Assembly: GCF_900446255.1 (NCBI RefSeq)
Contig: NZ_UIGI01000001.1
Coordinates: 2,754,763-2,818,762, forward strand
From: Buttiauxella agrestis
Lineage (GTDB): Bacteria > Pseudomonadota > Gammaproteobacteria > Enterobacterales > Enterobacteriaceae
Length of the DNA stretch: 64,000 nucleotides
Reading direction: 5' to 3'
This document shows positions 55,681 through 62,717 of the stretch, in pieces. Position 1 is the first letter of the stretch, and each line of letters opens with the position of its first letter. Made by a program: the position numbers and the translations under genes. A model generated the notes under the pieces. The model did not search any database. It saw nothing but the letters and a program-made list of their open reading frames with translations, and was not told the DNA's origin.

Positions 55681-58851
<3,171 letters not shown>

Positions 58852-60611: not shown

Positions 60612-60638
60612 AGGGCAGAATGAGTATTCTGCCCTTTT
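60612..60638. terminator. Terminator between ansP and anti-sigma gene
   Basis: AGGGCAGAAT, loop GAGT, ATTCTGCCCT plus TTT. It lies between two convergent genes. Confidence 0.87.
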
Positions 60639-60645
60639 GCAGTGT

Positions 60646-61299
60646 TTATAACGTCCCACTAAACACAACTGGCCCGGTCGGCTGCCCGGTTGGAGACCCC
60701 CCCTGCGGTTCGAGACTCATTGCAATCGTCATCCCTGCCACAAGCTTTACATTTCCTGCCGCTAACTGCGTCGTCTGCTGCGTATTCACTAAGCCCAATG
60801 AAATCGGTTTTTCCCCTTGCGGGATGGCCCACAGCTGCAAGCTGCTATTGGCGGCAATTTCACGCGTTTGTACCGGAACCAGCTTCAGCGTTTGGCGATT
60901 GCTGTCGGTGCTGATAATCCACTGCCCTTTCGCCGCATCGCTACTGTTTAATACCACCAGCGGTGCAAGTTCCGGAGTAGGACGGGTGAAATGTGGGACC
61001 AGCACAATTGCGGCAAGCCCTGCGGCCAGCGCCCATCCTAAATAGTTCCAGTTCCACCCTGCTATGCGCTTTGTTGGCGGCAAGCTGAGTTGTATTTTCT
61101 TCCACACGCGTTCCGGCGGCGTTCGCGCCACAACGTTGTTATCGAGTGCGGCTAGCATCGTTTGCCAGCGACCTAAAATGGCGACTAAATCGGGTTCGTT
61201 GGCCAGTCGCCGCTCAAAACGCAGACGCGCACCGCCACGCAATGTGCCCAGGGCATACTGTGCAGCCAGCGCGCTATCGATATCTTGTCTGCTTTTCAT
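60646..61299 (-). CDS. Anti-sigma factor, RskA family
   Basis: Membrane-bound anti-sigma factor, 217 residues. N-terminal cytoplasmic anti-sigma domain (about 1-85) includes LAAQYALGTLRGGARLRFERR, the typical RskA/ChrR-like start. One membrane helix LGWALAAGLAAIVLVP lies at about residues 88-103. The C-terminal about 110 residues are the RskA domain, periplasmic, with a SLEPQGGSPTGQPTGPVVF end that is diagnostic. It overlaps the sigma gene by four bases (ATGA) and is translationally coupled. It probably holds the sigma factor inactive until cleaved or a signal arrives. Confidence 0.87.
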   Translation of the reverse strand: MKSRQDIDSALAAQYALGTLRGGARLRFERRLANEPDLVAILGRWQTMLAALDNNVVARTPPERVWKKIQLSLPPTKRIAGWNWNYLGWALAAGLAAIVLVPHFTRPTPELAPLVVLNSSDAAKGQWIISTDSNRQTLKLVPVQTREIAANSSLQLWAIPQGEKPISLGLVNTQQTTQLAAGNVKLVAGMTIAMSLEPQGGSPTGQPTGPVVFSGTL

Positions 61300-61850
61300 A
61301 ATCCCACACAGTCCTTCAGATGGCCGAGCGCACGGCGAACCCAGCTTTTAATGGTGCCGAGCGGTTGATGCATCCATGTCGCAATTTCGCTATGCGACAT
61401 CCCCTGGTAGTAAGCCAGAACCACACTTTGGCGCTGCTCCGGGGGGAGATGCGCCAGGCAGCGAGTGAGTTGCTCGACTTCGTCGTCGCCATGATGAGTT
61501 TCTGCGCTTTCGTTACCCGACATCGGTGTGAACTCGGTGAGTTCTTCTTCGAGTTCGCTGGCGCGTGCTGTACCGCTTCGCAGCCAGTCAATGCAACGGT
61601 TGCGGACAATATGCGTCATCCATGTCATCGGGGAGCTCGCCGTCGGGTCGTAAGAAGCGGCACGGTTCCACACCGAGAGAAAGCTGTCATGAAGCACTTC
61701 TTCCGCCCAGGCCGAACGGCGCAACATTCGCAAAGCGACGGGAAAAAGGTGCGGGGAAGTCTGGCGATAGAGTTGTTCAAAAGCGCGACGGTCGCCCTCG
61801 GCAACCGCCCTTACCAGCATAACCTGATGCTGCACCTGCTTATTATCCAT
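61296..61850 (-). CDS. ECF sigma factor, SigK-like
   Basis: Extracytoplasmic-function sigma factor of 184 residues. Region 2 has FEQLYRQTSPHLFPVALRML and EEVLHDSFLSVWNRA; region 4 has LPPEQRQSVVLAYYQGMSHS and PLGTIKSWVRRAL, a helix-turn-helix that reads -35 elements. Closest resemblance is to the SigK-type ECF group paired with RskA anti-sigma factors. The start MDNKQVQHQVMLV at 61850 is chosen for its CAGGA element; upstream in-frame ATGs at 61856 and 61886 exist. It is between a fasciclin gene (54 bases upstream) and the anti-sigma gene. Confidence 0.87.
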   Translation of the reverse strand: MDNKQVQHQVMLVRAVAEGDRRAFEQLYRQTSPHLFPVALRMLRRSAWAEEVLHDSFLSVWNRAASYDPTASSPMTWMTHIVRNRCIDWLRSGTARASELEEELTEFTPMSGNESAETHHGDDEVEQLTRCLAHLPPEQRQSVVLAYYQGMSHSEIATWMHQPLGTIKSWVRRALGHLKDCVGL

Positions 61851-61904
61851 ATCCATCCTGATTGGGGTGTGGGCGAATTCACCCACACCGAGTATAGACA
61901 GGAT

Positions 61905-62465
61905 TTATTTCGGCATCAGAACCGTATCAATCACATCAATCACCCCGTTTTTCTGATTCACATCATAAGTGCTGATATTGGCAATATTGCCTTTGCCGTC
62001 TTTAAGCTGAATGTTGTGCGGGCCATTGCTCATAATCCACAGCGGCTGGCCGTTGACGGTTTTCAGTTCTGCATGACCGCCGCCATCTTTGATTTTTTTC
62101 TCAAGCTGCTTCATGTCGTATTTACCTGCCACCACGTGGTAAGTCAGGATGCTGGTCAGCGTGGCTTTATTCTCCGGTTTTACCAGATTTTCAACGGTGC
62201 CTGCCGGCAGTTTTGCAAAGGCGGCGTTAGTTGGCGCAAACACGGTAAATGGCCCTGGACCTTGCAAGGTATCCACCAGCCCTGCCGCTTTTACCGCCGC
62301 AACCAGCGTGGTGTGATCCTTAGAATTCAGCGCATTTTCTACAATATTTTTAGAAGGATACATCGCAGCGCCGCCTACCATAACGGAGTCTGACATCATG
62401 GCAGCCATGGAGGTTGCACTGAACAGTAACGATGTAGTAACAGCAGCAGTAATCAATTTGTTCAT
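61905..62465 (-). CDS. Secreted fasciclin (FAS1) domain protein
   Basis: Exported protein of 186 residues with signal peptide MNKLITAAVTTSLLFSATSMA. One FAS1 domain follows: the H1 motif TVFAPTNAAFAKLP, the YH motif in LTYHVVAGKYD and the H2 end NGVIDVIDTVLMPK. FAS1 domains mediate adhesion or surface interactions. AGGAA precedes the start. It is the first gene of an operon with the SigK-like sigma and RskA-like anti-sigma. A candidate ECF promoter lies upstream. Confidence 0.9.
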   Translation of the reverse strand: MNKLITAAVTTSLLFSATSMAAMMSDSVMVGGAAMYPSKNIVENALNSKDHTTLVAAVKAAGLVDTLQGPGPFTVFAPTNAAFAKLPAGTVENLVKPENKATLTSILTYHVVAGKYDMKQLEKKIKDGGGHAELKTVNGQPLWIMSNGPHNIQLKDGKGNIANISTYDVNQKNGVIDVIDTVLMPK

Positions 62466-62513
62466 GGTTAATTCCTCATTGCGTCAGGAGCGCGTTATTG
62501 GCTCACACTCTGA

Positions 62514-62541
62514 TATACGAATGAGGAAACGAACTGGATGC
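62514..62541 (-). promoter_or_regulatory. Candidate ECF (SigK-type) promoter of the fasciclin operon
   Basis: On the reverse strand, GCATCC (62541-62536), a 16-base spacer and CGTATA (62519-62514) resemble ECF promoters; mycobacterial SigK promoters are reported as CCATCC and CCGAAT. It lies 49 bases before the fasciclin start. The call rests on visual resemblance only. Confidence 0.4.
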
Positions 62542-62717
62542 AGAAAAAGTGAAATATTTTTCAGATTCGTTCTTTTTCTTCTTCACGCTAAAAATTTGCA
62601 TTAACGTTATGTGCCGTTAACACTTTTCAAACATTCATCACAAGTATTAACATACCCACCTGAATGTTCCAGATGGTTCGTCCGGAACGTAAATGTCTCC
62701 ACCAGTGAAAATGTCTG

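Follow-up and report, generated by a model that had tools for sequence, protein, structure and literature searches.

To our knowledge, the role of FAS1 (fasciclin) proteins of the MPT70/MPT83 type is unsettled, and the described systems closest to the locus treated here couple such a protein with an ECF sigma factor, SigK, and its membrane-bound anti-sigma factor, RskA. Related pairs, RpoE-ChrR of R. sphaeroides and PSPTO_1043/1042, presumably form group ECF11. Veyrier et al. (2020) tested the mpt83-sigK-rskA cassette of Yersinia enterocolitica by means of a reporter driven by mpt83p, both in Y. enterocolitica itself and in E. coli, which has neither SigK nor RskA (PMC7509140). On its own, SigK has weak activity at the mpt83 promoter; this activity is silenced by RskA, whether complete or cut to its first 85 residues, and truncated RskA 1-179 results in full activation. 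The signal that opens the SigK-RskA pair is still being sought (PMC7509140). In M. tuberculosis, where the pair goes with the FAS1 proteins MPT70 and MPT83, SigK controls eleven genes, MPT83 has a lipid anchor, and the oxidation state of two SigK cysteines affects SigK-RskA binding (PMC7509140). As for classification, M. tuberculosis SigK is assigned to ECF18 and Yersinia SigK to ECF19 in PMC7509140, M. tuberculosis SigK/RskA is placed in AS19-1 in PMC7406223, and the group numbering differs between the two sources.

The RpoE-ChrR type has several points of contact with these systems. PSPTO_1043, an RpoE/ChrR-like sigma factor, recognizes the consensus TGATCC-N16-CGTA (PMC5507510), photooxidative stress is listed as inducing the fasciclin RSP_1409 in R. 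sphaeroides, and RpoE-ChrR of R. capsulatus stands nearer to SigK-RskA of M. tuberculosis than to its counterpart in R. sphaeroides (PMC7074977); the last two observations are possible leads to the signal. In a paper on P. syringae B728a, the gene Psyr_0892 is named ecf11 and ECF18 refers to an RpoT-like sigma factor, with no fasciclin there, and a paper on Bradyrhizobium ECF factors contains none of six terms looked for.

The unit considered here lies in a window of 64,000 nucleotides from Buttiauxella agrestis (contig NZ_UIGI01000001.1, positions 2,754,763 to 2,818,762), and coordinates below refer to this window. On its reverse strand, the ORF list and Pfam delimit three genes at 60646-62465: a FAS1 gene of the mpt83 type (61905..62465; 186 aa; Fasciclin PF02469, 1.7e-33), a sigK-like ECF sigma gene (61296..61853; 185 aa from ATG; Sigma70_r2 and r4_2) and an rskA-like anti-sigma gene (60646..61299; 217 aa). 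The sigma stop and the rskA start overlap as ATGA. A longer sigma reading from a GTG at 61886 was judged less likely because that start falls inside a hairpin. By Pfam, the unit is flanked by a permease gene for amino acids and a gene for a TonB-dependent receptor, presumably ansP and yncD as named in an earlier note on this DNA, and a consensus scan places a terminator-like stem (60612..60635, reverse strand) between rskA and the convergent ansP. The earlier note had described a FAS1 protein, an ECF sigma factor and a membrane anti-sigma factor on the reverse strand with ATGA coupling, all of which the coordinates, Pfam and the overlap confirm; its interval omits the candidate promoter P1 discussed below. 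As to its statement that E. coli K-12 has no such unit at ansP-yncD, a blastn search ('distant', E 1e-5) of 20,395 records from E. coli found no similar DNA. The three genes are not a chance set of ORFs, since all 22 RskA homologues in 198 family genomes keep the gene order.

The unit has the same three genes, in the same order and with the same protein types, as the Y. enterocolitica cassette, and in both a SigK site precedes FAS1 (PMC7509140). Compared with two Yersinia copies in the comparison set (L129 and L131), identity is 87% for FAS1, 57% for SigK and 49-51% for RskA; the Y. alsatica and Y. frederiksenii copies are L002 and L003 in that set. Unlike the Yersinia cassette, the window unit sits between ansP and yncD. 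The window very probably carries an enterobacterial mpt83-sigK-rskA cassette, that is, a dedicated switch whose own FAS1 gene is its main and perhaps its only target. Given that Veyrier et al. tested the Yersinia cassette in 2020, in an experiment akin to the expression test that the earlier note put forward, the central idea of that note was already published: the unit exists as described, yet most of it was known before, and novelty of the sigma-switch idea is not supported. RskA inhibition and SigK dependence have been shown for Y. enterocolitica only, and the Buttiauxella copy presumably works like this orthologue.

The sigma factor resembles SigK by several measures. In a PDB sequence search, the top hit is SigK of M. 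tuberculosis (4nqw, 2e-23) and the second is SigE of R. sphaeroides (2q1z, 2.3e-21), which marks the sigma factor of the RpoE-ChrR pair as another relative. Among NCBIfam models, SigK ranks second of 87 (1.7e-43) but, at 148.5 bits, falls short of the curated cut-off (226); the PRK12537 model comes out marginally ahead (151.6 bits, cut-off 261). The window protein has C132 and C182, corresponding to Cys133 and Cys183 of M. tuberculosis SigK, and both redox cysteines are conserved in 23/23 family sigmas (for either position, 55/84 in the whole set). A quick tree was built from 81 sigmas, L001-L003 being left out as copies of family genomes. It unites 28 of the 29 Enterobacterales rows in a single group (support 85) and leaves the row of G192 outside; SigK of M. 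tuberculosis is placed with the RskA-linked sigmas of Proteobacteria at a weak support of 81, a placement that is tentative because of the long branches, and the RskA-linked sigmas of Bacteroidota stand apart.

The anti-sigma protein consists of an N-terminal domain, a single hydrophobic segment predicted to span the membrane (approximately residues 86-105, 60985..61044, reverse strand; Kyte-Doolittle maximum 1.72 at residue 87) and a C-terminal RskA_C domain (PF10099, 1.2e-17, above cut-off), which is its only Pfam match. RskA_C, the lone transmembrane segment and a gene adjoining sigK are the features expected of RskA, and its helices look similar, as judged by eye only, to the motifs that PMC7406223 shows for AS19-1. 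ChrR is a zinc-binding anti-sigma factor, whereas the window protein has neither a cysteine nor an HxxxCxxC motif. The FAS1 protein begins with a hydrophobic, Sec-type, signal-like segment (hydropathy). It contains no cysteine and is therefore not a lipoprotein, unlike M. tuberculosis MPT83 with its lipid anchor (PMC7509140). It is 96% identical to FAS1 of B. brennerae and 69-96% identical to the 22 family copies, compared with 42-82% for SigK and 29-75% for RskA, a gradient suggesting that the FAS1 output is kept while the membrane partner drifts.

Ahead of the FAS1 gene lies P1 (62514..62541, reverse strand), a predicted ECF promoter consisting of GCATCC (-35), a 16-nt spacer and CGTATA (-10). 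We take P1 to be of the SigK type. The motif GCATCC[AG]-N-CGTAT begins 73-84 nt upstream of the FAS1 start in 23/23 cassettes, each of which thus has a SigK-type promoter at this place, and the spacer between ATCC and CGTA in the P1 core is 16 or 17 nt in 31/31, counts to which several close kin contribute, so that they are not independent. Together with the co-occurrence of FAS1 and RskA described below, this conserved promoter supports the proposal of the earlier note that FAS1 is the output of the sigma switch. The PDB search, the NCBIfam rank, the cysteine pair and the tree likewise back its naming of the sigma factor as SigK-like, and its suggestion of a SigK/RskA-FAS1 module shared with a Gram-negative bacterium stands in substance, on promoter, co-occurrence and sigma type, and falls as a novelty (PMC7509140). 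The three genes, their order and co-occurrence, P1 and the redox cysteines are established at the level of sequence.

A further observation concerns the FAS1 leader (62463-62519, reverse strand), where an inverted repeat of the GAGC...GCTC type lies near the expected transcript start. Its arms differ yet match each other in several relatives, and covariation is weak, with 65.5% of cells paired compared with 61.8% in shuffled and at most 51.7% in slid versions.

At rest, RskA in the inner membrane would bind SigK. An envelope or redox signal would alter or cut the outer domain of RskA, and the freed SigK would drive P1, leading to synthesis of the secreted FAS1 protein. A second, internal promoter may keep sigK-rskA supplied apart from FAS1, and a hairpin in the FAS1-sigK gap may limit read-through or protect the end of the FAS1 mRNA. 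The CTATACT box (61891..61897, reverse strand) is the candidate -10 of the internal promoter P2 for sigK-rskA. Behind the stop codon of FAS1, 30 of 31 cassettes carry TATA[AC]T (the stretch scanned was longer for L134), where shuffles lead one to expect 1.03; the exact CTATACT is present in 28, and the box is lacking in the outlying cassette L013, which is not from an enterobacterium. Directly 3' of the box is a strong hairpin (61866..61889, reverse strand), the 45-nt stretch folding at -22.9 kcal/mol (z -3.5). Across cassettes, the gap hairpin has z below -2 in 20/30 (mean -2.4) and starts within a few bases of the box in most, while five short gaps (L004, L005, L130, L132 and L182) have no notable hairpin; RNAalifold on a naive gap alignment gave no consensus fold and no pairs, and an Rfam search gave only matches far below the gathering scores. 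We considered whether the window has an intrinsic terminator in this gap and rejected the idea, as the hairpin lacks a T-run and is absent from the output of the terminator scan. In the Yersinia copies L129 and L131, the gap has an outer stem followed by a T-run and looks like a terminator containing the CTATACT box, and in L134 about 90 nt are inserted between the FAS1 stop and the box relative to L133, the box being retained.

The strongest competing explanation differs from the favoured one only in this second promoter. According to it, P1 alone transcribes FAS1-sigK-rskA in an autoregulatory loop and the box is an RNA or protein-binding element, an account that we consider a serious contender while leaning somewhat against it. 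In its favour, the genes are close and co-directional; no -35, including TTGACA-like hexamers at spacers of 12-23, rises above background upstream of the box, and scanning the region for the sigma-70 consensus yielded no promoter. RpoS promoters are described as having C at -13, a weak -35 and an AT-rich discriminator (PMC7527412); the missing -35 and a C at -13 in 29/30 cassettes fit this description, and the G-rich stretch that follows the box does not. (L013 was left out of both alignments and of the -35 and -13 counts.) Against an element other than a promoter, the hexamer and its C at -13 persist while the surroundings and the distance to the FAS1 stop vary between cassettes, and the single variant of the hexamer, TATAAT, is the -10 consensus. 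These properties suggest that the CTATACT box is a candidate internal promoter for sigK-rskA. The abstract, introduction, section 8 and discussion of PMC7509140 make no mention of such a box in the Yersinia cassette. Titles and abstract openings on fasciclin and SigK/RskA-type ECF systems, drawn mainly from openly available papers, contain neither the box nor comparable counts of FAS1-RskA co-occurrence.

A second alternative holds that FAS1 answers to another ECF sigma factor, for example of the RpoE-ChrR type, and that the adjoining sigK-rskA serves other genes. It draws on the PSPTO_1043 consensus, nearly identical to P1 (PMC5507510), and on the induction of RSP_1409 in R. sphaeroides (PMC7074977). 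The anti-sigma protein of the window, an RskA_C protein devoid of cysteines, stands against it, as does the response of Yersinia mpt83p to SigK in E. coli, a host with no SigK or RskA of its own (PMC7509140). The survey of 198 Enterobacteriaceae-family genomes, with RskA and FAS1 each taken at E up to 1e-10, weighs in the same direction: RskA is present in 22 genomes and FAS1 in the identical 22, in the order FAS1-sigK-rskA in each, and no family genome with only one of the two was found. On this evidence, control of FAS1 by another ECF sigma factor is improbable.

The favoured reading, in which SigK and RskA serve the adjoining FAS1 gene, was also followed genome-wide. With the strict motif in 33 genomes, the FAS1 promoter was matched in 19 of the 22 unit carriers, the three missed having C before CGTAT. 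Matches other than FAS1 were about equally frequent in the two sets of genomes: 32 in the 22 that carry the unit and 13 in the 11 that lack it. Thirty strict matches were inspected, comprising 10 FAS1 promoters, 14 sites in long ORFs and 6 others (3 before an ORF); these 6 never recur across genus codes, and no second recurrent target promoter was seen among the strict matches examined, on an exact-motif scan that would miss weaker sites. A looser motif in B. brennerae gave 18 sites: 15 lie inside ORFs of at least 200 aa, 2 have no ORF after them, and the last is the FAS1 promoter. These results fit a regulon of one promoter, and the regulon may well consist essentially of P1, compared with the eleven genes under M. 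tuberculosis SigK (PMC7509140).

Beyond the family, among 299 Pseudomonadota (Pfam), 57 have both Fasciclin and RskA_C, 21 RskA_C only, 29 Fasciclin only and 192 neither (Fisher p 2e-22, kinship uncorrected), and the two genes lie within 3 kb in at least 27 of the 57. Among the best 80 of 578 confirmed FAS1 relatives, 25 loci carry both a sigma and an RskA-like gene and 55 do not. For 30 genomes with a lone FAS1 locus, RskA_C was found elsewhere in 30/30, each time adjoining a SigK-like gene; these 30 were hand-picked from the 55 and are mostly named isolates, many of them Bacteroidota, and the yardsticks for RskA_C presence, 78/299 Pseudomonadota and 2/14 control genomes, do not cover Bacteroidota. 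In Hafnia alvei (L007, 4001-4555), there is a FAS1 gene with neither P1 nor an adjoining sigma gene. The idea that Hafnia FAS1 had lost its switch was dropped, and this gene is regarded as an extra FAS1 copy because Hafnia carries a complete cassette with P1 and box elsewhere (L195 and L237).

Within the same 80 loci, ATCC[AG]-N14-16-CGTA precedes FAS1 in 8/9 Enterobacterales loci (0 in shuffles and other controls for this group), in 7/17 other loci where a sigma gene and an RskA gene are both present, and in 28/54 other loci without the linked pair; controls (opposite strand, downstream, reversed, wrong spacing) gave 0-2 and shuffles at most 0.1. The core ATCC-N16-CGTA is shared with an RpoE/ChrR-type sigma factor (PMC5507510), so a match in another phylum is not enough to point to SigK, and the use of this core as a SigK mark outside Enterobacterales is weakened. 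There, the P1-type motif appears to mark control of the SigK or of the RpoE/ChrR type. What counts against the reading of the window as a dedicated SigK-RskA cassette is this shared core, together with the sub-threshold SigK score, the tree support of 81, the Pseudomonadota with Fasciclin lacking RskA_C (29/299) or the reverse (21/299), and a close relative without the unit, G001. More tentatively, and with our estimate falling a little short of even, SigK-RskA of Enterobacterales could be a one-promoter system for one secreted FAS1 protein, with P1 and the CTATACT promoter (possibly RpoS-dependent) uncoupled and the hairpin between them, the second promoter fixing the basal amount of the switch, and with FAS1 remaining tied to SigK-RskA beyond Enterobacterales even where the genes are apart.

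G001 is the nearest comparison genome (34% of sampled words shared; AnsP 99% and receptor 98.8% identical). In it, receptor and ansP adjoin each other at a clean empty site: the flanks are 95.3% and 97.2% identical, and 28 nt replace window positions 60639..62570 between ansP and yncD (blastn). No shared repeat of 7 nt or longer was found within 40 nt of the segment borders, and the sole direct repeat in the segment, of 17 nt, is away from its ends. In five other genomes (G021, G167, G190, G194 and G073), FAS1 adjoins the same TonB-receptor gene (80-93% identical). For this reason, the simpler reading is that G001 lost the unit, rather than that the unit was gained several times, and a gain would be the less likely course. 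The notion of a recent mobile passenger whose three genes have no functional tie, to which the patchy presence (22/198), the empty site and the occurrence of the unit on both large Pantoea plasmids inspected might lend colour, is the least probable of all, in view of the fixed order in 22/22 genomes with none carrying one part only, P1 in 23/23 cassettes, the five genomes with the same receptor and the lack of border repeats. Under the reading as a dedicated cassette, a minimal enterobacterial unit, a close relative without it and apparently one target offer a simple setting in which to seek the signal and the role of FAS1. On the far side of ansP, and directly preceding it, is a beta-galactosidase-type gene (Pfam GH2 and Bgal_small_N; 55711-58851, forward strand), and the neighbourhood of this gene and ansP is repeated in L123, L124 and L151.
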